The translations under genes were made by a program, and so were the position numbers. Below the pieces are notes generated by a model that saw nothing but the letters and a program-made list of their open reading frames with translations, was not told the origin of the DNA and did not search any database. Below are positions 4,810 to 24,765 of a DNA stretch of 64,000 nt, one piece after another. Origin of the DNA: Methylorubrum extorquens (GTDB lineage Bacteria; Pseudomonadota; Alphaproteobacteria; Rhizobiales; Beijerinckiaceae); contig NZ_JALJXF010000001.1 in assembly GCF_024169925.1 (NCBI RefSeq), forward strand, positions 3,106,001 through 3,170,000, in the 5' to 3' direction. Each line of letters opens with the position of its first letter. The stretch's first letter is position 1.

Positions 4810-5024
4810 TCAGGCGTCCGCGCGCGCCGGCAATGCGGCGGGCCGAACGGCGAGGATGCGTGAGGCTCCGTCCTGTGTCATCGCCGCGAGCGATGCGCCA
4901 TCGCCGGGCGCGGATCAAGGTTTTGCATTCCGCCCCTCCGGCGCCTGAGACACAAACCCTCACCTCCGGCGGGCGGACGGCGTCCCGACCGGTCGCGTAT
5001 GGTCCGCCGGGGAAACGGAGTGGG

Positions 5025-6332
5025 ATGCAGATACCAATGTGGGCGACGCGGAGTCTCGGTCTGATCGCGGCCCTTCTGCTCGCGGTGCCCGCGGCGGCGC
5101 AGATGCGCGGCCACGGCGGGCCGGTTCGGGCGCTGGCCGTGACCGGCGACGGTCGCCTGGCGGTCTCGGGCGGGTTCGATCAGGCGGCGATCGTCTGGGG
5201 TCTCGAGGCCGGCGCGGCGCTGAGCGTCCTGCGCTTCCACGACGGCGCGGTGAACGCCGTGGCGGCCCTCGCCGACGGGCGCTTCGCCAGCGCCTCGGAG
5301 GACGGGCGCATCGCCCTGTGGCGGCTGGGACAGGCCGAGCCGGAGCGCGTGCTCGAAGGACATGCCGGCCCCGTCGCCGGGCTCGCCGTCTCGCCCGACG
5401 GCACCATGCTGGCCTCCGCCGCCTGGGACGGCACTGCGCGGATCTGGCCCCTGGCGGGCGGGCCGGCGCGGGTTCTCGAAGGACACAGGGGCAACGTCAA
5501 CGCGGTCGCCTTCCTGCCCGATGGGCGCCTCGTCACGGCCGGAGCGGACGCGAGCGTGCGGATCTGGACGTCGCAGGGGGAGACGTCTCTGACCGTGACG
5601 CTTCCGAGCGCCCTCAGCGCGCTGGCGGTGACCGGGGATGGCGAGATCGCCGCGGCGGGGGCGGATGCCACGGTGCGGTTCCTCGCGCCCGACGGGCAGG
5701 TGCGGGCAGAGGTCGAACTCGGCCCTGCCCCGGTGATCGCGCTGGCGCCGGCGCCCAACGGCACCCGGATCGCCGCCGCAAGCGCGGGCGGAACCGTCGC
5801 GATGATCGAGCGGGCGAGCGGAAAGATCCTGTTCACGCTGGTCGGGCCGGGCCTTCCGGTCTGGTCCGTGGTGTGGCGGCCGGATGGGAGCGAACTCGTC
5901 ACCGGTGGGGGCGACCGCCTCGTGCGGCGCTGGAACGCCGCGACCGGCGAGCCGATCGGCCCCCTCGCCATGCCCCGGCCCGCGGACGCGCTCGCTACGT
6001 TCCACGGCGAGCGGGGCGCGGAGGTGTTCCGCGCCTGTGTCGCCTGTCACACCCTCACGCCCGGCGACGCACCCCGCGCCGGGCCGACGCTCGCCGGCCT
6101 CTTCGGCCGGCGCATCGCGACGGTCGCGGGCTACCGCTACTCGGAAGCGCTCAAGGGCATGGACATCGTCTGGACGCCGGAGACGGTCGCCCGCCTGTTC
6201 GAACTCGGCCCGGCGCGCTTCACCCCCGGCACGCGGATGCCGGAGCAGACGATCAACAGTGCCGAGGACCGCGACGCGCTGATGCGCTTCCTGGCCAAGG
6301 CAACGGCGACGCCGCCGACCGGGGCGAACTGA
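5025..6332 (+). CDS. Exported WD40 seven-blade propeller fused to class I cytochrome c
   Basis: A 435-residue protein. The start at 5025 has GGAG four bases upstream and gives a signal peptide ending about ...VPAAAQ (residues 1-26). Seven WD40-type repeats follow, each with a GPV/GNV turn and a terminal W or equivalent, enough for one closed propeller. From about residue 325 there is a cytochrome c domain with the haem motif CVACH, GPTLAGLFGRR and a distal-Met candidate in TPGTRMPEQ. It should lie in the periplasm as an electron-transfer protein with a docking propeller. It is divergent from the Mo-cofactor operon, so it may donate or accept electrons for a periplasmic dehydrogenase; the partner is not evident. 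Confidence 0.85.
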   Translation: MQIPMWATRSLGLIAALLLAVPAAAQMRGHGGPVRALAVTGDGRLAVSGGFDQAAIVWGLEAGAALSVLRFHDGAVNAVAALADGRFASASEDGRIALWRLGQAEPERVLEGHAGPVAGLAVSPDGTMLASAAWDGTARIWPLAGGPARVLEGHRGNVNAVAFLPDGRLVTAGADASVRIWTSQGETSLTVTLPSALSALAVTGDGEIAAAGADATVRFLAPDGQVRAEVELGPAPVIALAPAPNGTRIAAASAGGTVAMIERASGKILFTLVGPGLPVWSVVWRPDGSELVTGGGDRLVRRWNAATGEPIGPLAMPRPADALATFHGERGAEVFRACVACHTLTPGDAPRAGPTLAGLFGRRIATVAGYRYSEALKGMDIVWTPETVARLFELGPARFTPGTRMPEQTINSAEDRDALMRFLAKATATPPTGAN

Positions 6333-6838: not shown

Positions 6839-8707
6839 TCAGGCTGGGGAGTCGAGAAGCTGCGAGACCCGCGCCGCGAGTTCGGCGGAGGCGAAGGGCT
6901 TCGTCATCACCGGCAGATCCTCAGGGATCTGCACGGCCTCCGCATGGCCCGTCAGCAACAGGATCGGCACGCTGGAGAAACGCTCGCGGATCGCGGCGGC
7001 AAGCTCGACGCCTGTCATGCCGGGCATGGCGAGGTCGGCCACGACGAGGTCGAAATGCTCGCCCTGCTCCATCAGGCTCAGCGCCGTGCGCCCGTCCGAG
7101 GCCTCGGTTTCGTTGTAGCCGAAATCGCTGAGGAAAGAGGCGGTGACGTGTCTCACCTCCTCGTCGTCGTCGACCACGAGGATGCGGGCCGGGATTGCCG
7201 CGGTCACCACCGCCGGGGCGGTCGTCTCTTCGGTGTCTTGGGCGGCGCTCTGGGCGCGCGGGAGGGCGAGTTCGATCCGGGTTCCCTGGCCGACTTCGCT
7301 GGTGATGCGAAGCCGCCCGCCCGCCTGCTGAGCGAGGCCGAACACCATGGCGAGGCCGAGGCCGGTGCCTTGCCCGACCGCCTTGGTGGTGAAGAACGGC
7401 TCGCAGACCCGTTCCAGAATCTCCGGCGGGATGCCGGTGCCCTCGTCTGCGACCGTGACGACCGCGTAGGTGCCGGGTTTGAGATCGGGATCGTCGGCGA
7501 TCTCGGCGCGACGGGTCGAGATGGTGACGGTGCCGCCGTCCGGCATCGCGTCGCGGGCGTTGATGCAGAGGTTGAGCACGGCGAGTTCGAGCTGGTCGGG
7601 ATCGACCAGAGCGAAGGGCATGTCGGGTTCGAGATCCCGCACGACGCGCACATGGCTGCCGAGGCTGGAGCCGAACAGCGCGCTCATCCCCTCGATCAGC
7701 GCGTTCGGGTCGACGGGCCGGGCATGGGCGTCGTTGGAGCGGCTGAAGCTCAGGAGCCGCTTGGTCAGCGCCGAGCCGCGTTGCGCCGCGCCGGTGGCGT
7801 TGTCCACGAGGCGCTTGACCCGGGGCTGGTCAGCGATCTTGGGGCCGACGAGTTCGAGGCTGCCGAGGATCGCGGTGAGCAGGTTGTTGAAGTCGTGTGC
7901 GATGCCGCCGGCCAGCGTGCCGAGCGCCTGCATCTTGTCGGATTGGCGCAGCCGCGCCTCCAGGCTCTTCTGCTCGGTCACGTCCCGCTCGATCGTGGCG
8001 AGATGCGTGACCTCGCCGGCCCCGCCGCGGATCGGCACGCGGATGACGTGCGACCAGCGCTCGGCACCGAGCGCGCCGCGGGCGATCACCGTCGAGCCGG
8101 CTTCACCGGCTGCGACCGCGCGGCGGTCGGCGGCCTCCGCCTCTTGGGCCTGAGGGGTTCCGGCGATCTCTGTCTCGGTGCGGCCGAGGCAGGTCTCGAC
8201 CGTGCCGCCGACAAGACCCGCCTTGCGCGTATTGAGGCGCACGAAGCGGCCTGCCGCGTCCTTGAAGGAGATCGCCTCCTCGGCGTGGTCCAGGAGGCCG
8301 CGCAGCAGGGCCCGCTCGGTGGCGAGATCGCGGCCGAGGCGGTGACGCTCGTAGGCGTTGCGCACCGTGGCGCGCAGCAAAGTCGGGTCCCAGGGCTTGG
8401 CGACGTAGCCGATGATGCCGCCGCGATTGAGCGCCGCGATCACCGCCGAGATGTCGGCATAGCCGGTGAGCAGGATGGCCTGCGCCTCGTGGAAGCCGCG
8501 CGCCTCGGCCAGCAGCGCGTCGCCGGTCATGCCGGGCATGCGCTGATCGGAGACGACGACCGCGATGTCCGGGTCGTCGCGAAGGATATCGAGCGCCTCT
8601 TCGGGCTTGGCCGAGGTGAGCACCCGGTACTCGTCCTCGAACAAGTCCTCCAGAGCGATCAGGATGTCCGGCTCGTCATCGACGGCCAGAATCGTGCCTT
8701 TGCTCAT
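6839..8707 (-). CDS. Hybrid histidine kinase, REC-PAS-HisKA-HATPase-REC
   Basis: A 622-residue soluble protein with no membrane segment. An N-terminal receiver (residues about 5-120, phosphoacceptor D54 in [11 protein letters not shown]) is followed by a PAS domain (about 135-250), a dimerisation domain with H-box [11 protein letters not shown], an ATPase with N-box [14 protein letters not shown] and G2 box GTGLGLAM, and a second receiver (about 505-620, [13 protein letters not shown]). It is the last gene of the chemosensory operon and overlaps the upstream kinase by four bases (ATGA). The first receiver can accept phosphate from the CheA or kinase encoded upstream and the last can pass it on. 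It is the probable end of the in-operon relay, with the final output outside the window. Confidence 0.9.
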
Positions 8708-10437
8708 ACCGGTGCCGGTTGCCTCGGAATTCCGATGACGAAGCTCGCGCCGCCGCCCGGCGCCGTCTCGACGATCAGCGAGCCGCTATGCGCCTGAACG
8801 ACGCTGTAGGCAATCGCCAAGCCAAGCCCGGTGCCCGATCCGACCGGCTTCGTCGTGAAGAACGGCTCGAAGATCTTTTCGCGTAACTCCTCGGGAATAC
8901 CGGGTCCGGTATCGCTGATGCGGATCATGTCGAATTCGGCATCCGAATAGGTCGCCACCGTGATGGTCCCGTCACCATGGATCGCATCCGCTGCATTGCC
9001 GAGGATGTTCATGACGACCTGATTCAACAGGGCCGGCGTACAGGAGATCTCCGCGCGTCCCGAGAAGTCGCGCGTCACCGTGATCCGGGTACCGAGCTTG
9101 TGCTGGATCAGAGCCAGCACCGTCTCGATCGCCTCCGGCACGTTGACGAGGCCGCGCTCGCCCTCGTCGAGCCGCGAGAACTTCCGCAGGTTGAGAACGA
9201 GATCCTGAATCCGGGTAAGCCCGAGGCGCATCGAGCCGACCCGGTCGCGCGCCTTGGTCAGCGCCCGCTGGCCCTCGGGCGCATCGGGTGGCGGCAACTC
9301 GCCGAGCAGGCGCTCCACCGTGCCCTGATGCGCCAGGATGAAGGCGAGCGGATTGTTGATCTCGTGGGCGATGCCCGCGACCAGTTCGCCGAGCGAAGCC
9401 ATCTTGGCGGCCTGGACCAGCTTGGCCTGCGCCTCCGTCAGCTTGCGGTTGGCGTCTTCCAGGTCGCGGTTGGCCTGTCCGAGTGCGTCGGCCAGCGCCG
9501 CGCGGGCGGCGGCCGTCTCGGCCTCGGCGCGGGCGCGCTCCACCGCACGCTCGCGGTCGCCGAACTCGCCGGAGATGCGGCGATTATCTTCCTCCAGCAG
9601 ACGGCGGCGGACGAGGCCGCGCACCCGCATCGCCAGAACTTCGCCGTCGGCCTTCGACACCACGTCGTCGGCGCCGGCGGCGAAGGCCGCGACCAGGAGG
9701 CTCTTGTCCGGCTTGTCGCCGGCCATGCCGACGAGGGGAAAGGCGTTGCCGCCGCCCTCCGGCGCCTTCATGCGGCGCTCGGCGATCTCGGTGCAGAGCG
9801 CGATGCCGTCATAGGCGCTGCCGACGAGGTCGAGGGTCACGCAGTCGAAGCCCGCACCGGGCTCGTCGAGGGCTGCGAGCGCCCCCGTGCGGTCCGCCAC
9901 GGCGACCACGGTGTGGCCCTCCTGGGTCAGCAGGCCGGTGAAGAAGGCGCGGTAGGTGGCGCTGCCGTCGACGATCAGCACCCGGCCGCGGCGGAAGGCG
10001 GCGCCGGACGGCCCCTCCGTGGCGGAACTCTTGCGTTCGCGCAGCAGGGCGCGGATGCGCAGCACGAGGAGATCGCGGTCGGCCGACTTTTCGACGTAGG
10101 CGTCGGCGCCGCTCTCGAAGCCGTGGCGCTCGCCGTTGCGGGCGCTAGTGAGCATCACGACGGGCAGCGCCCGCGTTCGCAGCGACAGGCGCATCTGCCG
10201 GGTGAATTCGTCGCCGTTCATGCCGGGCAGGTGGTGGTCGGCGACGACGAGATCGGGGAGGTCGGTGTTGAGTAGGTCGAGCGCGGCCTCGGCGGTCGCG
10301 CAGCGCTGCACGGAAAAGCCATGCCCTTCGAGCTGAAGCCTCAATTCGAGCGCCTGGGTCTCCGAATCCTCGACCAGCAGCAGCCGGTGGCCGGGCGGGG
10401 CGGATGATGCGCCGGAGGGCGATGCACTCGCGGTCAT
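8704..10437 (-). CDS. REC-REC-coiled-coil histidine kinase (CheS3-like architecture)
   Basis: A 577-residue soluble protein. Two N-terminal receivers (D67 in [11 protein letters not shown], and a second around residue 200 in [13 protein letters not shown]) are joined by a charged Ala/Arg/Glu-rich coiled coil (about 285-340) to a kinase core: H-box [14 protein letters not shown]-box [11 protein letters not shown] boxes DTGPGIPEE and [10 protein letters not shown]. There is no sensor or membrane domain, so input must come through the receivers, most simply from the CheA of the same operon. The layout matches that described for CheS3, the CheA3 partner in Rhodospirillum centenum. It overlaps cheB and the next kinase gene by four bases on each side. 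Confidence 0.9.
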
Positions 10438-11519
10438 GCCGGCTTCCTCTGCGCGAGCCGCACGAGATGGTGCGCTACATGGTCGAGGGGCAGCACCCGG
10501 GCCGCCGCGTTGAGGCGCACCGCCGCGGCGGGCATACCGTAGACGACGGCGCTGCTCTCGTGCTCGGCCACCGTGGCGGCGCCGGCCTTGCGCATGTCAA
10601 GCAAGCCCTGTGCACCGTCCTCGCCCATGCCCGTGAGCAGCACGCCGATGCCCTGCGGCCCGGCCTGACGGGCGACGGAGCGGAACAGCACGGTCGCCGC
10701 CGGGCGCTGGCCTCCGACCGGAGCCAAGTCGCTGACCCGAAGCAGCCCGTTCGCCCCGAGTTCGAGATGACGGTCGCCGGGGGCGACGTAGACATGGCCG
10801 GGCTGCATCGTCTGCCCGTCCCGCGCCACCCCGACGGCGAGCGGCACCACGCCGTCGAGCCAGCTGGCAAAGCCGTCCATGAAGGCGGCGCCCATATGCT
10901 GAACCAGAAGGATCGGAAGCGGGAAATCCGCCGACAGGCCGCCGATCACCTTGGCGAGTGCCGGCGGGCCGCCGGTCGATGCGGCGACCGCCAGCACGCT
11001 CGGCGCGGCCTCTGACTCGGAGAGGATCGGCAGGTCGGGGGTGGGAGCCGTCCTGCGCGCATTCCATTCCGCTCCGATCGGCCGGCGGCGGATGACCGGG
11101 ACCGCGGCCATGATGCGCAACTGTGTGCAGATCTGCCCAGCGACCGCCTCGTAGCCGTCATTGGTCGTCGCCACGGGCTTCTCGACCACCGAAAGCGCGC
11201 CAGCCCGGAGCGCGTTCATCGAGATCTTGAGCGAGGAATCCTCAATCGAATCGGCGATCACCACGATCGGCGTCGGCCGGCTCGCCATGATCCGGCGGGT
11301 CGTCTCAAGCCCGTCGATGCCGGGTAGGCGGATGTCCATCGAGATCACGTCCGGCCGCACGGTCTCGATCGCCGCGAGCGCCGCCTCGCCGGATTCAACC
11401 GCTCCGGCCAGTTCCAGCCGCGGGTCGCGGGCGATGATGTGGGTGAGGAGGATGCGCACCACGAGCGAATCCTCGACAACCAGCACGCGCACGCGCGGAT
11501 TCTCAGCCCCTCCGTTCAC
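10434..11519 (-). CDS. cheB: Chemoreceptor glutamate methylesterase/deamidase CheB
   Basis: A 361-residue protein with an N-terminal receiver (residues about 10-125, D62 in VISMDIRLPGIDG) and a C-terminal esterase domain holding the catalytic triad motifs AASTGG (Ser), VQHMGAAF (His) and LTGMGEDG (Asp). When phosphorylated by CheA it demethylates the receptor, giving adaptation. Length and domain order are standard. The stop overlaps the downstream kinase gene and the start overlaps cheA by four bases, so the three are translationally coupled. A hydrophilic linker of about 55 residues joins the domains. Confidence 0.95.
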   Translation of the reverse strand: MNGGAENPRVRVLVVEDSLVVRILLTHIIARDPRLELAGAVESGEAALAAIETVRPDVISMDIRLPGIDGLETTRRIMASRPTPIVVIADSIEDSSLKISMNALRAGALSVVEKPVATTNDGYEAVAGQICTQLRIMAAVPVIRRRPIGAEWNARRTAPTPDLPILSESEAAPSVLAVAASTGGPPALAKVIGGLSADFPLPILLVQHMGAAFMDGFASWLDGVVPLAVGVARDGQTMQPGHVYVAPGDRHLELGANGLLRVSDLAPVGGQRPAATVLFRSVARQAGPQGIGVLLTGMGEDGAQGLLDMRKAGAATVAEHESSAVVYGMPAAAVRLNAAARVLPLDHVAHHLVRLAQRKPA

Positions 11520-13750
11520 AGCAACTGACCGATGGTATCCAAGAGTTCGCGCTGATCGAATTTCTGCTTGGTGAGATAGGCGTCGGCCCCGAGTTCCAAC
11601 CCGCGCGCCACATCCTCCTCGTCACCGCGCGACGTCATCAGGACGATGGGGAGGCGTGCGAAATCCTCTTCGGCGCGCAAAGCCTCGACGAGGCCGAAGC
11701 CGGTGAGGCGCGGCATCTCGACGTCGGCGACCACGAGATCGACCGGCTCGATGCGCGCGCGCAGACGGTCGAGCGCCTCTTGCCCGTCGACGCAGACGAT
11801 CACGCGGTAGCCCGCCGCTTCCAAGATGCTCTTCTCCAAGGTGCGGGTGGTGATCGAGTCGTCCACGACAAGAATCGTCGAACGTCGCGTTTCCGGGATC
11901 GTTCCGCTGCCGTCCCCAAGTCCCTTCGACGGGGGCCGGACGGCCCGCGGACCGGCGCGACCGAGCCGGTCGATCAGTCCGTCCGGATCGAGAACGAGGG
12001 CGGGCGTATCGGTGCCGAGGATGACCGTGCCGGTGACGAGGGCGGGATCGCTGCCGATCGGCGGTGCGGGCAGGACCAGCAGCGTGCGCACCTCTTCCAG
12101 GCGATCGACCGCGAGCAGGCACCGCCCCCGCGTGCCGCGCAGACGCACCACCGGGATCGTCGCGCCCTCCGGGCGGTCGATGCCGAGGCCGAGCAGGTCG
12201 CCGAGTTCGGCGAGCGGTAGCGTGACGCTCTCTCCGCCCTCCCCCGCCACCTGCGCCACCGGCCGGCCCGCCACCGTGGACAGGGCCGAGGCATCGAGCC
12301 GCGAGAGCGCTTCCGCGGCACCGCTCGGCAGGGCGAAGCGCGTGCCGCCGGCCGAGACGATCAGCACCGGCCGGCGCGCAGCCGAGAGCGGCAGGGTGAG
12401 GATCAGCGAGGTGCCGTACGGATGACGGCGGGCGAGTTGCACCCCTCCGTGCAGCGCGCGGGCGACCTCGGCCACCACCGACAGGCCCATGCCGCGACCC
12501 GACAGGGCATCGACCGCGCCGGCGGTGGAGAAGCCCGGCTCGAACGGCAGCGCGAGCAGCGCGTCCGCATCGAGGCTCTCGCCCGGCGCGATCAAACCGC
12601 GGGCGCGACCCGTCGTCTCGATCGCCGCGAGGTCGGGCCCGCGACCATCGTCGTGAATGCCGAGGACGAGTCGCCCACCCTTCGCCTCGACGGTCAACCC
12701 GATCGAGAGGGAGGCGGGCTTACCCTGGCGCTGCCGGCTCTCCGGACTCTCCGCCCCGTGGCTCAGCGCGTTGCGCAGGGCGTGCAGCACCGGATCCTTG
12801 AGCGCCTGGAGCATCGCCCGGTCGACCGGCAGGTCGAGGCCGCGCGTCGTGACCTCGACGTCCTGACCGTCGGAGCGGGCCATGTCGCGCACCGCGCGGG
12901 CGAGGCCGCCGAACACCGTCTCGGCCGGCACCAGCGCGAGGCGCTCGGTTTCCTCGCGCAGGCGGCGCGCAGCGGTCTCGACGGACAGGATGACGGCCTT
13001 GTGCCCTTGTGCGAGGTCGGAGGCTTCGCGTGACAAGGCGGCCAGCCCGCTCTCGATCTCGGCGAGCGCCCGCCGCAAAGCCGCAACCTCCGTCTCCTCG
13101 GCCCCGCCGGGGACGGTATCCGGAACGCGGCGGGCGGCCTCCGTGCGGCGGCGAAGGGCGCCCGCGTTCGCCGAGAGCCGCGCGATGCGCTCGGCGACGG
13201 CCCCATGCCCCGGCAGCGCGGTCCAGAGCCCGTAGCTCGCCCGCGTCAGCGACTCGACCGCGGCGGCGGGAACGCGCAGCACCGCCTGCGTCGGTTCGGC
13301 GGTCGGCTCGGTCGCGGCAGCCGGCGCGGCGGGCGAGGTGGCGGGCTGCGAATCCGGTTCGGGTCGAGCGGGCTCCGAAGCGACGGCCTCGGGGTCGAGG
13401 CAGGCGTTCAGCGCGGCCAGCGCGTCCTCGGGCATGCTCGCCTGCCCCGTCGCGGTCGCGGCGACGTAAGCCTCGATCCGGTCGAGAGCCAGATGAGTCG
13501 CGGCCCGCGCCGCCCTGTCGAGCGGGCGCTGTCCGGCGCTGATGCGCTCGAACAGGGTCTCGAGCTGATGCGAGACCGCCTCCACGGGAGGCAGATCGAC
13601 GGCACGCGCCGCCCCCTTCAGGCTGTGGGCGCGACGGAACACGTCGTGCCAATCGACCGGTCCCTCCGCCGCGAGAGCGGCGCGGATCGCGTCGAGATGC
13701 TCGCGATGCTCGATCTCGAAGGCGGCGAGAAGCTGCTGGCGGATGTCCAT
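11516..13750 (-). CDS. cheA: Hybrid chemotaxis kinase CheA with C-terminal receiver
   Basis: A 744-residue kinase. The Hpt domain has H42 in RRAHSLKGAARA. An Ala/Pro-rich linker (about 130-175) and a dimerisation region follow. The ATPase shows DPVLHALRNALSHGAE, HDDGRGPDL and GRGMGLSVVAEV. Then come a CheW-like regulatory domain and a receiver (from about residue 625; D in LVVADVEMPRLTG). A P2 domain is not obvious. CheA with a fused receiver is typical of Wsp/ACF and Frz-like systems: the REC can act as phosphate sink or relay. Encoded between the receptor and cheB, overlapping cheB by four bases. Likely phosphate targets are its own REC, CheB and the receivers of the two downstream kinases. 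Confidence 0.93.
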   Translation of the reverse strand: MDIRQQLLAAFEIEHREHLDAIRAALAAEGPVDWHDVFRRAHSLKGAARAVDLPPVEAVSHQLETLFERISAGQRPLDRAARAATHLALDRIEAYVAATATGQASMPEDALAALNACLDPEAVASEPARPEPDSQPATSPAAPAAATEPTAEPTQAVLRVPAAAVESLTRASYGLWTALPGHGAVAERIARLSANAGALRRRTEAARRVPDTVPGGAEETEVAALRRALAEIESGLAALSREASDLAQGHKAVILSVETAARRLREETERLALVPAETVFGGLARAVRDMARSDGQDVEVTTRGLDLPVDRAMLQALKDPVLHALRNALSHGAESPESRQRQGKPASLSIGLTVEAKGGRLVLGIHDDGRGPDLAAIETTGRARGLIAPGESLDADALLALPFEPGFSTAGAVDALSGRGMGLSVVAEVARALHGGVQLARRHPYGTSLILTLPLSAARRPVLIVSAGGTRFALPSGAAEALSRLDASALSTVAGRPVAQVAGEGGESVTLPLAELGDLLGLGIDRPEGATIPVVRLRGTRGRCLLAVDRLEEVRTLLVLPAPPIGSDPALVTGTVILGTDTPALVLDPDGLIDRLGRAGPRAVRPPSKGLGDGSGTIPETRRSTILVVDDSITTRTLEKSILEAAGYRVIVCVDGQEALDRLRARIEPVDLVVADVEMPRLTGFGLVEALRAEEDFARLPIVLMTSRGDEEDVARGLELGADAYLTKQKFDQRELLDTIGQLL

Positions 13751-13774
13751 GCGGCGGGACGCTCGGCCGGACCG

Positions 13775-15532
13775 CTAAAGCCGGTAGCGCTCGGCCAGAG
13801 CCATCAGCCCCTGTGCCAGCTCGGTCAGGTTGGCCGAGGCGGTCTCGACCTCGCGGGTGCCGGCCGCCGTCTGCTGGCTCGCCTGCCGAATGTTCTGCAA
13901 CGCTCCCATCACCTGCTCGATGCCGAGCTGCTGCTGGTTGGTCGAGGCCACGATCTGCTGGAAGGTCTGCACGCCCTCCTCCACGCGCGCGGCCATCTCC
14001 TCGATGGTGCGGACCGTCGAATCGGTGCGGGTCTTGCCGGCGGCGGCGCGCTTGACCGCCTCCTCGGTGAGCATGACCGAGGCGTTGATGCCGCGCTGGA
14101 TCTCCCCGAGGATGCCGCGCACCTGCGCGGTCGCGCCCTTCGCCTGGTCGGCAAGCAGCTTCATCTCGGAGGCGACGATGGCGAAGCTGCGCCCGCTCTC
14201 GCCCGCCGCCGCCGCCTCGATGGCGGCGTTGAGGGCGAGCAGGTGGGTGCGCTCCGAGATGTCGTTCACCGTGACGATGATCTCGCCGATCGCCTGCGTC
14301 TTCTCACTGAGGGAGACGATGTTCCCCGCCACCGCCTCGCCCTGTTCACGGATCGAATCCATCGCCTTGGCGGTGTCGGTGGCAGCGCGCAGGCCCGAAC
14401 GCGCGGTCTGCGCCGCGGCCTGGGCGGTGGCGATGACTTCGGTGGCGCGCTTCGAGATCTGCGCGCCCGAATGGGTGATCTCGTCCACGGTCGCCGCGGT
14501 CTCTTGGACGGCGGCGAATTGCTCCTCGACGCTTGCGGCCTGTTCCTGGGCGGAGGCGCGAATCTCGGCCGCTGCGGCGTTGAGGTCGGCCGTGGCTGCG
14601 CGGTTGGTGCGGGCGAGGTCGGACAGGCCGGCGACCATTCCGTTGAGCGTGTCGCCGAGCCGCCCGATCTCGTCGTTGCCGGAGCGGTTCAGGCGCCCCG
14701 TCAGGTCGCCGGCCCCGATCTGCGCCACGAAACGCATCACGTCCTCCAGCGGGCGCACCACCGCGCGGCTGATCAGCACCGTCACCAGGATGGAGAGCAG
14801 GATCGAGGCGGCGACCGTGATCGCGACGGAGAGGAGGCTGTTGCGGTAGATGTCGTTCACGCTGCGCTGCCCTGCGGCGATGACCCCGTCGAGGGCCGTG
14901 CGGGCGTTGGCGATGCTGCGCAGCAAGCCATCGTGCAGGCGGTTGACCTCCTCGTTCCGGGCTTCGACCTGCACGATGTCGCGGGCATCCACCGCGCGAA
15001 GCTGTTGCTCGCTCGCGTTGCGCACCAGGCGGAAGGCCTCGCCCGTCTCGCTGAAGACGGCACCGAGGCGTTTCCAGGCTTCCAGGCGCTCGGACGAGAT
15101 CGCGGCGGCCTGATATTCCTTCACCTCACCGGAAATGGTGCTGAGGAGCCGTTCCAGTTCCGCCACGTTCTGGCGCCAACTGCCCAAGAAATCATCGGAG
15201 CGGGCCGGCGTCGAGGCCGAATTCGCCTGCGCCTGATTCTGCGCCTGCGTCAGAACAGCGATCACTGCGTTGCGCCGCACGAGCCCCATGTTGCGCGCGA
15301 TGTTGCCGAGATCGTCGAGCTGACGCAGCACGCCGATATCGCGGGTCACGATCAGGTCGGTCATGTCGCGCACGCTGCCGATCTGGCGCAATGCGTAAGC
15401 GCCCAGAGCCGCCACGATCAGGCTCGCCGCCACGAAGCCGAGGAGGATGCGTTTTCCGATCGAGATCGACACGGGCGACATGGCTCCGGCAGGCGGTGCG
15501 GGGGAGGGTTCGGGTCTCGGGGCCGCCCCCAT
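13775..15532 (-). CDS. Methyl-accepting chemotaxis protein (transmembrane receptor)
   Basis: A 585-residue receptor. The ATG at 15532 is preceded by TTTGGAG at good spacing; an inner ATG at 15481 has poor spacing. TM1 lies at about residues 25-48, a periplasmic helical segment of about 165 residues follows, then TM2 near 210-235, HAMP, and a long coiled-coil signalling domain. The hairpin tip reads ISERTHLLALNAAIEAA then AAGESGRSFAIVASE, so the Arg of the canonical AARAGE is Ala here. There is no C-terminal NWETF-type pentapeptide to tether CheR/CheB. The ligand is unknown. The frame stays open far upstream, but that extension is antisense to and inside the cheW/cheR region and is not used. 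Confidence 0.93.
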   Translation of the reverse strand: MGAAPRPEPSPAPPAGAMSPVSISIGKRILLGFVAASLIVAALGAYALRQIGSVRDMTDLIVTRDIGVLRQLDDLGNIARNMGLVRRNAVIAVLTQAQNQAQANSASTPARSDDFLGSWRQNVAELERLLSTISGEVKEYQAAAISSERLEAWKRLGAVFSETGEAFRLVRNASEQQLRAVDARDIVQVEARNEEVNRLHDGLLRSIANARTALDGVIAAGQRSVNDIYRNSLLSVAITVAASILLSILVTVLISRAVVRPLEDVMRFVAQIGAGDLTGRLNRSGNDEIGRLGDTLNGMVAGLSDLARTNRAATADLNAAAAEIRASAQEQAASVEEQFAAVQETAATVDEITHSGAQISKRATEVIATAQAAAQTARSGLRAATDTAKAMDSIREQGEAVAGNIVSLSEKTQAIGEIIVTVNDISERTHLLALNAAIEAAAAGESGRSFAIVASEMKLLADQAKGATAQVRGILGEIQRGINASVMLTEEAVKRAAAGKTRTDSTVRTIEEMAARVEEGVQTFQQIVASTNQQQLGIEQVMGALQNIRQASQQTAAGTREVETASANLTELAQGLMALAERYRL

Positions 15533-15612
15533 CGCGGGCGGCTCCAAACGTCTGTCTTGATGCGCGCCGAACCGAACCGGTGTCCGGTTCGGCGTAACAG
15601 CGCTCGCGACGA

Positions 15613-16170
15613 TCAGGTCATGAAGCGGGCAAGTAGGGCCCGGATATCGACGAGGGAAAAGTCCTCGGGAATCCCGCCCGTCCTGTCCGAGCCGGGCGGT
15701 GCATAGCCCGAAAGCGGCCCGCGGCCCAGACTTTCCGACTCCGGTGCCAGCCGCGTCAGCGTCGTTTCGATCTGCGCGATGCCGAGCACGCGGTCGACGG
15801 CGAGGGCGACCGGCGGCTCCTGCGCGCGGAGACGCACCACGTGCCCGCCTTCGTCGGCCTTCGCGGGGTCCAGCCCGAGGCAGGCGGCGAGGTCGAGGAC
15901 ACTGACGATCACCCCCGACACCGCCGTGATGCCCCGCAGCATCGGCGGTGAACCCGGCAGCGCCGTGCAGGGCCGCTCGGGTGCGACGCTCGCGACCGTA
16001 GAGAGCGGCAGGCCGTAGCGCTCCGCTCCGCAGGCGCAGACGAGATAGGCGGCGGTCTCGATCGCCCGCTCCTGCCCCACCGTTCGGGCCGCAAGCGCGG
16101 CGGCGCGGGCATCGAGCAACACGGCCGTGCGCGCTTCGGCATCGGATCCGGCGGTCACGCCGATCTTCAT
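15613..16170 (-). CDS. cheW: Chemotaxis coupling protein CheW (first of two)
   Basis: A 185-residue protein from ATG 16170, overlapping the cheR stop by four bases. The CheW fold is seen from about residue 42: YLVCACGAERYGLPLSTVAS, then LPGSPPMLRGITAVSG, VIVSVLDLAACLG and LAVDRVLGIAQIE. The first 40 residues are an extra Ala-rich leader. CheW links receptor and CheA in the signalling array. Two different CheW proteins flank CheR, as WspB and WspD do in Wsp systems. Confidence 0.9.
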   Translation of the reverse strand: MKIGVTAGSDAEARTAVLLDARAAALAARTVGQERAIETAAYLVCACGAERYGLPLSTVASVAPERPCTALPGSPPMLRGITAVSGVIVSVLDLAACLGLDPAKADEGGHVVRLRAQEPPVALAVDRVLGIAQIETTLTRLAPESESLGRGPLSGYAPPGSDRTGGIPEDFSLVDIRALLARFMT

Positions 16171-17621
16171 GCGTCTCGGCCCGTGATTCCGGCCAGGGCA
16201 CGGCGTGCACTCTCGGCCAAGCGTGCGGCGCTCACTCCGTCTCCCTCCGGCAGGATCGTTTCGGGCGGCAGTCCTTGCGCGAGGCGCAGGGCGTTGTCGA
16301 GGGCGCGGGCGGCTTCGCCCCGGCGTCCGACGCGGGCGAGCAGCAAACCGAGCTGAAAATGGGCCATGACGAAGGCGCGGTCGAGGAACAGCGCCCCCCG
16401 CAGGGCTCGTTCGGCTTCCCGCTCCCGCCCGAGATCGAGGGCGAGGAGACCCTCGTAGTAGCGCAAGGGAGGATCGGTGGCGTAGCCGTCGATCTCTTCG
16501 TGCAATCGGCGCCATGCCCGCGCGGTTTCGCCCGCATCGGCCAGCACGCGGATCTCGGCCAGGAGATCGCCCGGCGACAGGGGATGCTCGATCGCCGGCG
16601 CCACCGGTCTCGGGGCCGGCACCGGCCGGGCCGGCGCGGCGGCAGCGACGGGTTCCGGCGGCGGGGCGAACAGGATCGGCGCCATGTCCGGCAGCGCGGG
16701 CACAAGAACAGGCGGCGGCTGAGACGCCGGCGTGTCGATCGGGCGGTAGGCAACCGTTCCCGGCAGGGCCACAGGCTGCAGCCATTGCCCGAAGGTGGGA
16801 TTGGGCTCGGCATGCCCGATCAGGAGCCAGCCCTGCGGGTTGAGCCGCTCGCCGAGCGCCCGCACGATGCGGGTGACATGGTCGGCGCTAAAATAGATCA
16901 GGACGTTGCGGCACAGGATCAGGTCGAAGCCTCCCGGCATCCGGTCGCTGCCGTCGATCAGGGTCAGGAGGTTCTGCCGCTCGAAGCGCACCATGCGGCG
17001 AAACGCCGGCCGCAAGGCGTAGCCGCCATGCGGCAATCCCGGCCGGGCGGGAGTGCGGCGGAACCAGCGTGCGCGCTCCTCCGTGTCGAGGGTGCGCAGG
17101 GCCCAGGGGCCGAACTCCCCCTCGCGCGCGACCGCGAGCGCGGCGGCGCTGAGATCGGTGCCGAGGATCGTCACGGACCAGTCGACAAGGGCGTCGCCGA
17201 GAAGGTCGTGCACGAGGATGGCGAGGGAATACGGCTCGGCCCCGGTGGAGCAGCCGGCACTCCAGATCCGCAGACGGCGGATCTCGCGGCGTGCCTCGAT
17301 CAATTCCGGAAGGATCGTTCGGCGCAGGGCCGCGAATTGCTCCGCGTAGCGAAAGAAGAAGGTCTCGCCGATGGTGATCTCGGCCTCGAGTGCGGCCCAT
17401 TCCTCCCGGCCGGCCGCGCCGTCGAGCAGGAGTGAGTAGGCAGCGCAGTCGGCGACCCCACACGTTCGTATCCGCTTGCGCAGGCGATCGTAGAGGAGGT
17501 CGTCCTTGTCTTCGTAATAATTGTGCCCGGTCCGGGCGATCACCCGATCCTTGAGAGCCGGAAAACCGGGATCCACCGCCGCGCTCGCGCCGCGTCGGGG
17601 CCGCTCGACGGGAGCCGTCAC
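16167..17621 (-). CDS. cheR: Receptor methyltransferase CheR with C-terminal TPR region (WspC-like)
   Basis: A 484-residue protein. The N-terminal helical domain and SAM-dependent methyltransferase (residues about 20-280) show ITIGETFFFRYAEQF, RIWSAGCSTGAEPYSLA, ILGTDLSAAAL, ILCRNVLIYF and LLIGHAEP. A Pro/Ala linker (about 290-350) leads to about 130 residues of tetratricopeptide-like helices (AWRRLHEEIDGYATDPPLRY, then ALFLDRAFVMAHFQLGLLLA). TPR-fused CheR occurs in Wsp and other non-flagellar chemosensory systems, where the TPR region may replace pentapeptide tethering. The receptor here lacks that pentapeptide, which fits. It lies 11 bases downstream of the second cheW. Confidence 0.93.
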   Translation of the reverse strand: MTAPVERPRRGASAAVDPGFPALKDRVIARTGHNYYEDKDDLLYDRLRKRIRTCGVADCAAYSLLLDGAAGREEWAALEAEITIGETFFFRYAEQFAALRRTILPELIEARREIRRLRIWSAGCSTGAEPYSLAILVHDLLGDALVDWSVTILGTDLSAAALAVAREGEFGPWALRTLDTEERARWFRRTPARPGLPHGGYALRPAFRRMVRFERQNLLTLIDGSDRMPGGFDLILCRNVLIYFSADHVTRIVRALGERLNPQGWLLIGHAEPNPTFGQWLQPVALPGTVAYRPIDTPASQPPPVLVPALPDMAPILFAPPPEPVAAAAPARPVPAPRPVAPAIEHPLSPGDLLAEIRVLADAGETARAWRRLHEEIDGYATDPPLRYYEGLLALDLGREREAERALRGALFLDRAFVMAHFQLGLLLARVGRRGEAARALDNALRLAQGLPPETILPEGDGVSAARLAESARRALAGITGRDA

Positions 17622-17632
17622 GACCGTTGTCC

Positions 17633-18133
17633 TCAGACGGCTCGCGCCCCCTCTGGCTCGAACCGGGCAAGTCGGGTCGTCGCCTGCCGGGTCAGCGCGT
17701 CGAGACGGGTCCGCTCTTCGAGCGTCAGGATGCGGTCGAGCGAGAGGAGATGCACGAGGCTGTCGCCCCGCGCGAATTCGCCGATGACGCAGCCATTGAG
17801 ACTACGGGCGGATTCGACCGGCCGCAGCGACTCCTCCTCGACTTGGACGAGGTCGAGCGCCCGGTCGACGAGAAAGGCGATGTCGCCCCCGCGGGCCAGC
17901 ACGACGTGCCGGTAGGGATCGCGACCGCTACCGGCGTCGCGAAGTGCGAACAGGGCGGCGAGATCGATGACGGGCACCGGCTCGCCGGCTAGATTGAGAA
18001 AGCCCACGAGAGGCCCGCCCGCGGCCGGCGGTGCATGCAGGCGCGGCAGAGGGAGGATCTCGCGGATCTCGGCCCGCGGCAAGGCGCAGGTCGTCCCGGC
18101 GATGTCGAGAAGCAGGGTCGGCAGACGCGCCAT
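17633..18133 (-). CDS. cheW: CheW-domain protein, promoter-proximal gene of the chemosensory operon
   Basis: A 166-residue protein. I start it at ATG 18133 because CCAAGGA lies six bases upstream; the frame runs open to 18229 without a better site. CheW-like features include LLLDIAGTTCALPRAEIREI, VGFLNLAGEPVPVIDLAALF, VVLARGGDIAFLVDRALDLV and a C-terminal Arg-rich helix. It is probably the first cistron of the operon that runs to 6839, and corresponds in position to the first CheW of Wsp-type clusters. Its promoter should lie in the 140 bases between it and the regulator gene at 18272. Confidence 0.85.
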   Translation of the reverse strand: MARLPTLLLDIAGTTCALPRAEIREILPLPRLHAPPAAGGPLVGFLNLAGEPVPVIDLAALFALRDAGSGRDPYRHVVLARGGDIAFLVDRALDLVQVEEESLRPVESARSLNGCVIGEFARGDSLVHLLSLDRILTLEERTRLDALTRQATTRLARFEPEGARAV

Positions 18134-18271
18134 CGCATGTCCTTGGGGCGGTTCGCCGCGGGAGCGGACGACGGGACCGCTCGTCACCTCGATCATGCGG
18201 TTGACGCTCGCCGAACGCAAAGGTTTCACGAACGACCGGTCCGGCCGTCCGTTCCTGCGGCGAGCGCCGGC

Positions 18272-18760
18272 TCAGGCGACCTTCTGGCGCGAACGCGACT
18301 TCGTCGCGGGCTCGGGCGCGGGGGCCTCTTCCTCGATACGGCCACCCGGCCGGCCGAGGCCGATCGACTTCGCGAGGGCGGAACGCTGCGCGGCGTAGTT
18401 CGGCGCGACCATCGGATAGTCGTTCGGGAGGCCGTAGCGCTGGCGATACGAGTAGGGATCGAGGCCGTGCGTGCCGAGATGGCGCTTGAGCGTCTTGTAA
18501 GCCTTGCCGTCGATGAAGCTGATGATCGCATCCGGCGTCACCGATTTGCGGACCTGCCCGGAGGACGGCTTCTCGATCGCTTCCTCGGCGGGAGCGGCCA
18601 CGGCCTCGGGACTGCTGAGGGTCGTCAGCGCCGTATGCACGCTGATGATCAGGCCCGGAAGCTCGGAAGCGGGGACTGAGTTGTTCGACACATAGGACGA
18701 GACGATATCGCTCGCCAGTTCGACGAAATCGTTGAACGATTTCTGGTTTTCTTCTGTCAT
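18272..18760 (-). CDS. MucR/Ros-family transcriptional regulator lacking the zinc Cys
   Basis: A 162-residue protein from ATG 18760. The N-terminal oligomerisation region (residues 1-50, FNDFVELASDIVSSYVSNN) and the C-terminal DNA-binding core (residues about 72-140: IDGKAYKTLKRHLGTHGLDP, YGLPNDYPMVAPNYA) are clearly MucR. The zinc-site Cys of Ros/MucR (C-x2-D-x9-H-x3-H) is Ser81 here, while D84, H94 and H98 remain. Zinc-less members of the family are known to keep the fold by other contacts. MucR proteins bind AT-rich targets and act in an H-NS-like way on envelope, exopolysaccharide and motility genes. It sits immediately upstream of the chemosensory operon in the same orientation and may regulate it. 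Confidence 0.9.
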   Translation of the reverse strand: MTEENQKSFNDFVELASDIVSSYVSNNSVPASELPGLIISVHTALTTLSSPEAVAAPAEEAIEKPSSGQVRKSVTPDAIISFIDGKAYKTLKRHLGTHGLDPYSYRQRYGLPNDYPMVAPNYAAQRSALAKSIGLGRPGGRIEEEAPAPEPATKSRSRQKVA

Positions 18761-19339
18761 TCTGCCTGTCCGTTCCGTAGGCCCCCGGGCGCCAAAATCA
18801 TACGTGATGCGCACCGATGCAAGAGAAGAATTCGAAAAACTATGTCAAGCTTGTGGGTATTGAGGATGGCACACTCAAGTCCAGCGTCGTCGTTGAAGCG
18901 TAGAACGTTAAATGGAAGCCGTGCTCACACGATCCAGTGGTGTGTCATAGCTCAACCTTTCCGGCGCTGACCCGGAGCGTTGCCGCAACCGGAACGTCCT
19001 ATAAGCGACGGACGGACCGAGAGTTTCAGTTCGGCTTCCGCAATTGGCACAGTGGAGCGGAAGGACGCTGCCGCACCGTGTCCGCACTCCCGTCAACCCC
19101 GCAGGGAGAAAGCGGGAAACGGGTGACGCTTTGACGTCTTAAGCACCCATATTCTTCGCTATACAACCGGTGCGAGACGATCCGTCGCGCCGTCATCAAG
19201 CCTCGATTTGTGTCTCCAAGTCCAATGAAGAGAGCGATTTCGGGCAGCAAATGTCATTCTTGTGAACGCCGGGACTGCCGCACGCATTGCCCGCCGGCCT
19301 CTGTTGATGGCGGGCCGTCCGTGCTACGGGTCAAGGACA
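18761..19339. other. Gene-free stretch upstream of the regulator and efflux genes
   Basis: About 580 bases between the divergent mucR-like gene and the efflux operon. It must hold both promoters. The first 150 bases next to the regulator are AT-richer than their surroundings, as expected for a MucR-autoregulated promoter. Short open frames exist on both strands but lack a ribosome site or protein-like composition. I see no recognisable RNA, riboswitch or mobile element. Confidence 0.5.
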
Positions 19340-19773
19340 ATGAAGTCCGCTGGTCCCATAGCGCTCTGGCTGGCGGCGGTGATCGTGATGGTCGCCGCCG
19401 TGCTGTTGCCGTCCGGCGCCCAAGCGCACGGCGTGCACGAGCATGTGGCTCGGACGCAGCCGGTCGTTGCCGCGACGCGTGACCTCGTGATCGCGGGATC
19501 GGACGTCCGGCTCGCCGCTCGATGCCGATCGTTCGAGCGGACGCGATACCGGTGATCGAGCCATCCCGGATGGACTGTGCCTGCCCGGATTGCGCAGCCG
19601 GAGGCACATGCGGCCATGCGCCGTCGTCCTGCTGCGCGACCGGACTTGCCCCGTCACCGGTTCCGGCCCTTCCGCCGGCCGCCGCGCAGGCCTGTGCTCC
19701 TGCGCGCGACGGGCCGCGTCTGTCGGGCATCGTGCCCGAGGCGCAGATCGAGCCGCCCCGAACCTTCGCCTGA
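19340..19773 (+). pseudogene. Cys-rich exported protein gene, apparently split by a frameshift
   Basis: The first part (ATG 19340, AAGGA just upstream) encodes a signal peptide and mature start (LLPSGAQAHGVHEHV ... LVIAGSDVRLAA), then leaves frame and stops at 19555. The +2 frame continues without a start-site signal from about 19500 to 19773 with a coherent tail: six cysteines in DCACPDC, GGTCGH and SSCCATG, then GPRLSGIVPEAQIEPPRTFA. Together they look like one protein of about 140 residues preceding the metal-efflux adaptor gene. The shift lies roughly at 19500-19550. It may be a real lesion, a sequencing error, or two short genes; I favour a single broken gene. Confidence 0.5.
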
Positions 19774-19844
19774 CGCCCGATCCCCATCCGGTACGCTTCG
19801 TACCGGGTGATGTCGTTGCTAATCCGGCGAAGGTTTGGTTCTCC

Positions 19845-21575
19845 ATGTCCATCCGTATCGCGGCGGCGCTTCGGGCGCTTGCCGTCTCGCTCGTGCTGGC
19901 CGCTGCATCGACCGCAGGCAGTGTCGCCCTGGCCCATGAGGGGCACAGCCACGGCGTCGAGGCGCCGGCCCTCCCCGTCCGGACCACCCCTCGGGCCGAA
20001 GCGGCCTCGGCCACCTTCGAACTCGTGGCGGTGGCGTCGAGCGACCGGATACGATTCTATCTCGATCGCTTCACCAGCAATGAGCCCGTGAACGGCGCCC
20101 AGATCGAGATCGAGACGCCGGACGGCCCGGCCGAAACGCGGGCCGTCGGCGACGGCGTCTACGAGATCGCCGCACCCTGGCTCGCTCGGGGTCAGCGATA
20201 CGACCTGCTTGCCACCGTGACCGCTGACAGAACGACGGATGTGCTGGCCCTCGACCTGCACCTGCCCGAACCGGAGGCGGCAGCGAGGCCGGTCCAGGCC
20301 GAGGCGTCGGCGTGGCTTGCCAATCTCCGGCGCCATCTCACTCATCAGGGTCCGATCGGTGCGGCCGCGGGTGGATTCCTGCTCGGGCTCGCCGTCATCA
20401 TGCTCGTGCGCTCGCGCCGGGCGCTCCCCGCGTTCGCGGTCCTCGCCCTGACCCTGACGCTACTCCTTGGTACGGCCGCCCTCGCCCATGAGGGGCATGA
20501 TCACGAGAAAAATGGGTCCGGCGAAGAGGAGGCCGCACCGGTCCAGGGGGCGGCGCTCACCGCGCCCACGGCTGCACCCGTCGAGCGCGCCCGGCGCCTG
20601 CCGGGCGGTGCGGTGTTCGTCCCCAAATCGATGCAGCGCCTGCTCGCTTTGCGCACCGGCCTGACCGGCATCGCCGACCATCGCCGTACCGTCGAACTGC
20701 CGGGGCGCGTCGTCGCCGATCCGAATGCCAGCGGCGTGGTGCAATCGTCGGTCGGCGGCCGCCTCGCCCCCCCGCCCGGTGGCTTCCCGAATCTCGGCAC
20801 ACGGGTTCGCAAGGGTGAGGTGCTGGCCACCGTCACGCCGCCGGTCCAGGCGGTCGACCTCTCCGACATGCGCCAGACTCAAGGCGACCTTGACCAGCAG
20901 ATCGCCATCACCGGCCGCAAGGTCGCCCGCTACGAGCGCCTCGCCGCGACCGGCGCGGTGGCGCAGACCGCCTTGGAGGATGCCCGCGCCGAACTCGCCG
21001 GCCTGAAGGACCGCCGCGCCGCCCTCGACACGATCCGCCGCGCGCCGGAAGAACTGATCGCTCCGGTGGACGGCGTGGTCGCCGAGCGGGCGGCGGTGGC
21101 CGGCCAGATGGCGGCGGCGGGCACGATGGTGTTCCGCATCGTCGATCCGGACAAGCTCTATGTCGAGGCGCTGAGCTTCGTCGGCCTGGAGCCCGGCGCC
21201 GCCGCCACCGCACGGCTGCCCGATGGGCGCACGCTGGCGCTGGCCTCCCGCGGCGCCGGCCTCGCCGACCGCAACCAAGCGGTGCCGGTGCAGTTCGCGA
21301 TCACCGGAAGCGCCGAAGGCGTCCGGCTCGGTCAGTTCGTGACCGTGCTGGCGCCGACCGGCGAGACCATCGGGGGATTGGCCGTGCCCCGAGCGGGAAT
21401 CGTCCGCACCGAGAGCGGTGCGGTCGTCTACGAGCACGTCTCTGCCGAGCGGTTCGAGCCGCGGCCCGTGCGGGTCGAGCCGCTGGACGCCGAGCAGGTG
21501 ATCGTGGCCGGCGGCCTCAATGCCGGCCGGCGCGTCGTGGTGCAGGGCGCCGAACTGCTCGATCAGGTCCGGTGA
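19845..21575 (+). CDS. RND heavy-metal efflux periplasmic adaptor with N-terminal His-rich membrane module
   Basis: A 576-residue protein. Residues 1-33 form a signal peptide ending before HEGHSHG. An Ig-like periplasmic segment follows (to about 150), then a membrane helix near 170-185 and a second hydrophobic segment (about 195-210) ending in a second HEGHDHE. Residues 260-576 are a membrane-fusion protein: [20 protein letters not shown], a short helical hairpin, [18 protein letters not shown] (lipoyl-like) and a beta-barrel. It would bridge the RND pump to an outer-membrane channel. It lies 13 bases before the pump gene. The two HEGHxH boxes suggest metal capture. It looks like a fusion of a small metal-binding membrane protein with an adaptor. 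Confidence 0.85.
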
Positions 21576-21588
21576 GGAGAGACGCGCC

Positions 21589-24500: not shown

Positions 24501-24765
24501 CCTGGAGCGGATGACGCCGGTGCTGATGACGGCGCTGTCAGCCGGCATCGCCCTGGTGCCGCTCCTCATCGACGGCACCGCGCCGGGTAAGGAGATCCTC
24601 CACCCCGTCGCCGTGACGATCTTCGGCGGCCTGATGAGCGCGACCCTGCTCGATGCCGTGCTCACCCCCGTCCTCGTCCTGACGTTCGGGCGGGGCGCCT
24701 TCGCTCGGCTTCATGCCCCGGCCGGAGCCGACGCGCTTCACGCACCCGTGGGTGAAGCCTTCTGA
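21589..24765 (+). CDS. Heavy-metal RND efflux pump, CzcA/CusA family
   Basis: A 1058-residue inner-membrane pump. ATG 21589 has GGAGAG about ten bases upstream. The N-terminal TM with [20 protein letters not shown], the first porter domain, a TM block with [39 protein letters not shown], a second porter domain, and TM segments with [19 protein letters not shown] and [14 protein letters not shown] are all typical of the HME branch. The TM4 proton-relay region reads [10 protein letters not shown], where CzcA-type pumps usually have VDGAVV; this may mark a separate subgroup. The metal cannot be read from sequence. It probably exports Cu/Ag or Co/Zn/Cd/Ni with the adaptor encoded just upstream. 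No outer-membrane channel gene is present. Confidence 0.92.

Follow-up and report, generated by a model that had tools for sequence, protein, structure and literature searches.

How does a chemosensory array pass on its signal when its operon encodes no CheY and ends in two histidine kinases? The question is raised by an operon on the minus strand of a 64,000-nucleotide stretch of the Methylorubrum extorquens genome (5.26 Mb; RefSeq assembly GCF_024169925.1, contig NZ_JALJXF010000001.1), hereafter called the window (C1:3106001-3170000). At positions 6839-18229, eight genes follow one another in the order cheW, cheR, cheW, MCP (methyl-accepting chemotaxis protein), cheA-REC, cheB, kin1 and kin2, each domain being confirmed by Pfam. 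The operon is real, conserved and functional-looking. Its sequence places it in the alphaproteobacterial Che3 lineage of the Rhodospirillum centenum type, of which it forms the Methylobacterium branch. Its precedent is the R. centenum Che3 system; new here are the exchange of the kinase module, the loss of CheY3 and the addition of a second kinase.

Conservation and content of the two-kinase operon

Could the two kinases have come to lie behind a chemosensory operon by chance? Both are found directly after cheB in 14 of 14 related loci, which argues against chance and bears out the initial annotation, where they were taken as integral parts of the operon. The 14 loci comprise all those with a cheB match of at least 58% identity, together with L139 (Methylobacterium sp. 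Leaf91) and L141 (Microvirga roseola), both from a scan of named genomes that covered the best 80 of 502 stretches, ranked against a distant CheA, and is no census. All eight genes are present in 13 of the 14, the contig of L047 ending before the MCP. For the CheA of L052 no CheW domain was detected; an apparent kin1-kin2 fusion protein in the same locus proved to be merely an over-long reading frame. Four-base overlaps recur at cheA/cheB (13/14 loci), cheB/kin1 (13/14) and kin1/kin2 (10/14).

All 111 genomes of the host genus gave a kin1 match and 110 a kin2 match, the exception being G596, an assembly of 730 contigs. In all 110 genomes with both, the two genes share contig and strand, their aligned ends lying 0-114 bases apart. 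The survey of the two-kinase ending suggested in the initial annotation thus finds it genus-wide, and in every one of the 14 loci opened. A class-wide sample of 190 genomes contained two with a cheB match of at least 58% identity (our own and G039), and an order-wide sample of 297 contained 11, the next match there dropping to 42%. Those eleven are our own genome and five more of the genus (6/6 sampled), two of one family (G464, G342) and three of another (G193, G279, G243); six sampled genomes of the same family but outside the genus had no cheB match at this level. The closest public proteins, where named, come from Methylorubrum and Methylobacterium, with best kin1 matches of 91-96%. Weaker cheB matches (36-45%) were considered as members and set aside: in most of those inspected, the surrounding cluster has one single-receiver gene ahead of a cheA that lacks a receiver. 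In the order-wide sample, four cheB matches (G453:C6, G367:C16, G479:C2, G341:C1) are each interrupted by a single in-frame stop codon, TGA in three and TAA in one, possibly a true break, an alignment running past the stop or a sequencing error.

The ending also sets the operon apart from others of like gene order. When 54 loci were compared, 45 had the strict order cheW-cheR-cheW-MCP-cheA(REC)-cheB, and in 13 of these 45 two kinase genes follow cheB directly; all 13 belong to the clade described here (the truncated L047 being left out). The features of the operon, all on the minus strand and given in the order of transcription, are as follows.

17633..18229, minus: cheW1, first gene of the operon, 198 residues (Pfam CheW, 74.2 bits); ends 11 bases before cheR
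16167..17621, minus: cheR with a C-terminal TPR-like region, 484 residues (Pfam CheR, 155.5 bits; TPR_2, 23.3 bits, cut-off of 27 not reached)
15613..16170, minus: cheW2 (Pfam CheW, 66.3 bits); likely start at about 16170, with a 4-base overlap with cheR, the listed start of the open reading frame being too early
13775..~15481, minus: MCP, 568 residues, with a first transmembrane segment, about 190 residues between two hydrophobic stretches, a second transmembrane segment, HAMP and signalling domain (Pfam HAMP and MCPsignal; hydropathy)
11516..13750, minus: cheA-REC, 744 residues, with Hpt (H42), catalytic domain (HATPase), CheW domain and C-terminal receiver (D676) (Pfam; conserved catalytic residues)
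10434..11519, minus: cheB, 361 residues, receiver and methylesterase (Pfam CheB_methylest, 187.1 bits)
8704..10437, minus: kin1, 577 residues, REC1-REC2-long helix-HisKA-HATPase, a CheS3 homologue in its REC-REC-linker part (Pfam, alignment, AlphaFold2)
10054..10386, minus: kin1 REC1, intact receiver (E23, D24, D67, T97, K117; residue check)
9622..9984, minus: kin1 REC2, atypical receiver (residue check)
9298..9645, minus: kin1 predicted single helix, residues 265-380, from REC2 to the phospho-acceptor helix (H358) (AlphaFold2)
6839..8707, minus: kin2, last gene, 622 residues, REC1-PAS_4-HisKA (HDFNNLL)-HATPase-REC2 (Pfam, residue check)
8363..8695, minus: kin2 REC1, intact receiver (D54; residue check)
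6866..7186, minus: kin2 C-terminal REC2, intact receiver (D558; residue check)

The MCP start at about 15481 is inferred: the listed frame begins too early, and another in-frame methionine lies slightly upstream. In CheA, Pfam (E 0.001) detected neither a P2 nor a P3 domain. The initial annotation had read from the letters the order CheW, CheR-TPR, CheW, MCP, CheA-REC, CheB, followed by a REC-REC-kinase devoid of a sensor domain and a REC-PAS-kinase-REC. Pfam recovered each of these domains and both layouts, the TPR below threshold. The initial annotation had wavered between five and six receivers, of which six is correct, and had described most junctions as four-base overlaps; this holds for four of seven (cheR/cheW2, cheA/cheB, cheB/kin1, kin1/kin2), the remaining three being gaps of 11, 131 and 24 bases. 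A scan for promoters and terminators detected neither a sigma-70-like promoter nor, behind kin2, a terminator-like site.

Descent from the Che3 lineage

Is this operon a Wsp system that has lost its WspR, or does it belong elsewhere? The Wsp system serves surface sensing and has WspR as its output. As the initial annotation had pointed out, the component set is the same (an MCP, two CheW, CheR, CheA-REC and CheB), but the parallel does not extend to descent. We built a tree of CheA cores (59 rows, IQ-TREE, with two support values) and a second, quick tree of 66 rows without R. centenum. In the 59-row tree the CheAs of the 14 two-kinase loci form one clade (100/99). On one side of a further branch supported at 100/99 stand this clade, Azospirillum oryzae and genomes of its family, the R. 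centenum group, and L102, an alphaproteobacterial genome from a metagenome; on the other side stand the Wsp-order CheAs (100/99), the Tfp CheAs (100/99), the flagellar-type and the other chemosensory rows. The CheA phylogeny that the initial annotation had proposed therefore groups the operon with R. centenum Che3 and apart from Wsp. The 66-row tree agrees on the two-kinase clade and on L145 (A. oryzae) and L102 as its nearest rows.

Gene order tells the same story. The MCP gene comes first in seven of the eight loci taken as Wsp by gene order, the eighth being cut, and the last gene is REC-GGDEF in L115 and REC-SpoIIE in L117 (two tails scanned). In our operon the MCP gene is neither first nor is a REC-GGDEF protein of the WspR type last. 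We therefore reject Wsp by descent. The operon instead shares with R. centenum the entire order cheW-cheR-cheW-mcp-cheA(REC)-cheB-tandem-receiver kinase, and its CheA groups with CheA3.

That the R. centenum locus compared (L187, G488) is indeed Che3 could be verified from residues: its post-cheB protein carries D54, A191 and H453 (with a fitting start) and its CheA carries D663, which are the published sites of CheS3 and CheA3 (PMC3868531). CheA is 41% and CheB 50% identical to the R. centenum proteins, the REC-REC-linker part of kin1 (residues 18-335) 38% and REC1 47.6%. The second receiver is degenerate there and atypical in kin1. The likeness to CheS3 proposed in the initial annotation is thus one of homology, in CheA as well as in this part of kin1. 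The claim that kin1 matches the layout of CheS3 goes too far: CheS3 combines PAS with an HWE kinase (PMC3868531), whereas kin1 has a HisKA kinase without PAS, and an alignment of the two kinase parts gave no significant similarity. Moreover, R. centenum has cheY3, whereas the present operon lacks it and has kin2 added. Of the MCP, only residues 217-568 align with that of R. centenum; the sensor region gave no significant alignment.

What is constant in the Che3 lineage, then, is a tandem receiver directly after cheB, while the partner joined to it varies. L102 has a REC-REC-HisKA kinase in this place. R. centenum and L192-L194 have REC-REC with a long tail, receiver 2 being degenerate, and a single receiver gene before cheW. 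L190 and L191 have a REC-REC-HATPase-REC protein of about 990 residues; in these two and in L102 both tandem receivers look intact. A. oryzae (L145) and its family (L188, L189, L196-L200) share the CheA group, the order up to cheB and the receivers directly after it, but differ in that the tandem receivers carry no kinase (L145 12528-13295) and a separate kinase-REC gene comes next. Here receiver 1 is degenerate (L145, L189, L196, L200) or undetected (L188, L197-L199).

Operons of the same order outside the lineage have tails of their own: REC-PAS-kinase-REC plus REC-EAL in L028; a three-receiver kinase, a single receiver and then REC-PAS-kinase-REC in L057; a three-receiver kinase plus a REC-nucleotide cyclase in L088; REC-GGDEF plus REC-kinase-REC in L089; and REC-GAF-GGDEF-EAL in L092 and L095. 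The similarity between kin2 and the kinases that end the L057 and L028 operons was rejected as a sign of shared origin, paralogues in its own genome being about equally similar. A contig filed as ANME-2 archaeon (L134) also encodes cheW-cheR-cheW-MCP-cheA(REC)-cheB followed by several kinase and receiver genes, through transfer or mis-binning.

How does this placement relate to functional classes? ACF (alternative cellular functions) is among the classes whose CheA has a receiver and no P2, according to PMC10782961; the CheA studied here has a receiver and no detected P2. PMC3868531 counts R. centenum Che3 itself among the systems of alternative cellular functions. The che3 operon of Bradyrhizobium diazoefficiens also lacks cheY, and cheA3 deletion caused no chemotaxis defect there (PMC13390405); it was rejected as the same system, its CheA3 being drawn without a receiver.

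Receivers, kinases and the predicted path of the phosphate

Which receivers could take up phosphate? Residues were compared in the 14 loci and in an alignment of 121 rows, consisting of the window and its 120 best public matches. The catalytic set of kin1 REC1 is complete in 14/14 loci and in every covering row of the 121. REC2 of kin1 is without the second acidic residue in 121/121, and outside the genus its Asp is lost in five of seven loci. In kin2, the acidic pair, the Asp and the Lys are conserved in both receivers in 14/14 loci, Ser replacing Thr in one locus each. In the receiver of CheB the usual Thr/Ser position is Ala in all 14 two-kinase loci. CheA conserves H42, its kinase boxes and its receiver. 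In kin1 and kin2 alike, the phospho-acceptor His is present in 14/14 loci, as are the checked residues of the N, G1 and G2 boxes, with the H-boxes HEINNPL (kin1) and HDFNNLL (kin2). kin2 resembles CckA models, at scores far under the cut-offs.

An AlphaFold2 model of kin1, computed from 35 sequences (mean predicted local distance difference test, pLDDT, 82.6; predicted template modelling score, pTM, 0.53), consists of two receivers and an unbroken helix (residues 265-380) that runs into the phospho-acceptor domain, confidence falling to 57-70 over residues 331-360. The kin2 model has a mean pLDDT of 82.5 and a pTM of 0.40. By sequence and by fold (root-mean-square deviation, rmsd, 4.2-5.0), residues 18-280 of kin1 match PleD (REC-REC-GGDEF), of which a solved structure spans both receivers; the output of PleD is a diguanylate cyclase, that of kin1 a kinase. 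The first fold match of kin1 is LvrB, a receiver-gated REC-kinase listed as a Leptospira hybrid response regulator, and the top sequence matches among structures are kinase cores and FixL chimeras. To our knowledge, neither PleD nor LvrB is part of a Che operon.

We consider it moderately probable that the operon encodes a Che3-lineage array which controls kinases in place of a flagellar motor. The MCP, with CheW, CheR and CheB for coupling and adaptation, would set the activity of CheA, as surmised in part from R. centenum Che3. CheA would phosphorylate its own receiver as a sink, CheB, and REC1 of kin1 at D67. The tandem receivers would act as a PleD-like neck, the change passing through the continuous helix to HisKA and making kin1 act either as a kinase or as a phosphatase. 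For kin2 two places are conceivable, beside kin1 as another target of CheA or behind it as the next step; it would combine the signal of the array with a cue from the cytoplasm, and its C-terminal receiver would hand phosphate on to a phosphotransfer protein. The response regulator at the end of the path is presumably encoded elsewhere and likely sets a state linked to development, surface or stress, and not the steering of flagella. We infer the flow of phosphate through the operon, including its central step, the predicted switching of kin1 by CheA through REC1, in favour of which speak the PleD-like fold and sequence, the helix model and the biochemistry of R. centenum, where CheA3 phosphorylates CheS3 REC1 and turns the kinase off and where CheA3-CheS3-CheY3 serves cyst control (PMC3868531).

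Several observations weigh against this scheme. Its phosphotransfer steps are predicted. The kinase module of kin1 is unlike that of CheS3, so that sign and partner may differ, and the operon lacks CheY3, which is the target in the R. centenum system. In kin1 REC2, the phospho-Asp D203 and K262 are kept in 121/121 rows, which means that this receiver may still be phosphorylated. The LvrB fold match superimposes poorly as a whole (rmsd about 39). Eight other proteins of the genome with a kinase and a C-terminal receiver are 37-44% identical to kin2; with such modules common, it is by its position, in the conserved pairing, that kin2 would be linked to CheA. Within the genus, kin2 is interrupted by an in-frame TGA in G601 and G583 and matched over residues 3-404 only in G595, and for kin1 the coverage is limited to 54-78% in four matches, of which two lie where a contig ends. 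Of 16 further CheA rows from the A. oryzae family, four fall outside the Che3 group. Lastly, the sensor region of the MCP diverges much faster (29-47% identity between 12 two-kinase loci) than its signalling part (66-86%), so that different species may sense different signals.

A more elaborate version would make the tandem-receiver neck a standard socket for exchangeable kinases, with a cascade from CheA to kin1 REC1, kin2 REC1, the kin2 C-terminal receiver and a phosphotransfer protein, so that the array would control a CckA-like phosphorelay. The live receiver differs by lineage: both in L102, L190 and L191; the first in the relatives of R. centenum and, at full strength, in the two-kinase clade; the second in A. 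oryzae and its relatives. Such a shift would be a rewiring of the same socket. We hold this version to be unlikely.

Could the array instead be Wsp-like in its working, though not in descent, with the kinases feeding a cyclic di-GMP (c-di-GMP) enzyme in trans? Relatives of the same gene order do end in c-di-GMP enzymes (L028, L089, L092, L095), and REC1 of kin2 scores against a NosR-family phosphodiesterase model, under the cut-off. Where placed, however, these relatives lie outside the Che3 branch (L028, L092 and L095 in the 59-row tree, L089 in the 66-row tree). Upstream sequence is available for 13 two-kinase loci, and in two of them cheW1 is directly preceded by a c-di-GMP gene on the same strand: a Cache-GGDEF gene in L050 (17789-19327, minus), 121 bases upstream, and a GGDEF-EAL gene in L052 (17975-19828, minus), 12 bases upstream. 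The two differ and were thus recruited separately, if they are linked to the operon at all; their products show no receiver domain, and a search with profiles from relatives, which in most loci reached about 2-5 kb upstream, detected neither GGDEF nor EAL in the remaining 12. An output of this kind seems possible but rather doubtful.

An accessory role in swimming, with the kinases tuning the flagellar che cluster or flagellar gene expression, appears quite improbable. The genome does have a separate che cluster (C1:4252877-4256305: a CheA of about 923 residues with a receiver, CheW, CheY and CheB). It also has two flhA genes, and all of these lie far from the operon, which means that motility is served by a pathway of its own. 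The B. diazoefficiens cheA3 deletion slightly raised expansion in one background (PMC13390405), yet that CheA3, of 636 residues, is drawn without a receiver and is a different protein. As already proposed in the initial annotation, the operon contains no free CheY (no cheY or other single-receiver gene in the list of open reading frames or by Pfam), and no flagellar family was found among the window frames scanned, so the operon does not sit in a flagellar cluster. Highly improbable, in our view, is a reverse or separate wiring in which kin1 and kin2 answer inputs of their own, while the receivers found in CheA, in CheB and in kin1 and kin2 serve as phosphate sinks or accept phosphate from the kinases. 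Full catalytic sets are retained by all three kinases and by four of the six receivers (CheA REC, kin1 REC1, kin2 REC1 and REC2), and kin2 has its own PAS domain; but kin1 shares REC1 with the R. centenum system, and Pfam found no other sensor in it.

If the array controls kinases, as we favour, which regulator would receive the phosphate? No regulator gene was found within the operon. Starting from 92 receiver matches in the own genome, we searched 20 stretches around short-frame receiver genes. Single receivers of the relatives match many single receivers of this genome weakly, and CheY3 of R. centenum best matches those in L183, L184 and L186 (39-42% identity). CstR is a candidate by its broad role only: a 2026 preprint (PMC13344952) reports it as a CheY-like protein that regulates carbon transitions in M. 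extorquens, and the available text of that preprint states no link to the operon. The published CstR primers had no exact match in the loci examined.

Neighbouring genes and wider relevance

Do the neighbouring genes belong to the system? On the same strand as cheW1, and 42 bases upstream of it, lies a gene for a MucR/Ros-type regulator (18272-18814, minus). A profile built from this regulator matched the window only, and not L027-L086, and none was found in L087-L166. We therefore reject it as a part of the system; being absent beside the operon in the other loci searched, it probably lies there by chance, though it could still affect expression here. Downstream, a WD40-repeat gene (4680-6332, plus) converges with kin2; its C-terminal part holds a CxxCH motif, by eye cytochrome-c-like. 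At 1748-4809 (minus) lies a tandem pair of overlapping moeA-type molybdopterin genes, one fused to a PBP-like domain. Divergent from the operon, 19590-24765 (plus) contains a resistance-nodulation-division (RND)-type efflux gene (ACR_tran); the frame before it is large, with His-rich stretches and no Pfam match at 1e-10, and may hold the fusion-protein partner. A conserved neighbour gene was sought among flanking families present in at least three of the 14 loci (the 25 widest) and rejected, these being confined to close relatives, except for generic ATP-binding cassette (ABC) ATPases at differing distances in L051, L055 and L056 (L051 and L056 members scanned).

The open-access literature on Methylobacterium and Methylorubrum, or on tandem receivers with CheA, held no description of this operon in the parts available. 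With R. centenum Che3 as precedent, the operon is ordinary in kind. Its value lies in that a tested but isolated case gains a wider family, in which the array and its tandem receivers are constant and the kinase is variable, and which shows that chemosensory arrays have been re-plugged to new outputs in evolution. The variant occurs throughout the searched genomes of the genus, including, with close public relatives, the genetic model Methylorubrum extorquens. Since this genus is genetically tractable, the flow of phosphate from a chemosensory array to ordinary histidine kinases is testable there.

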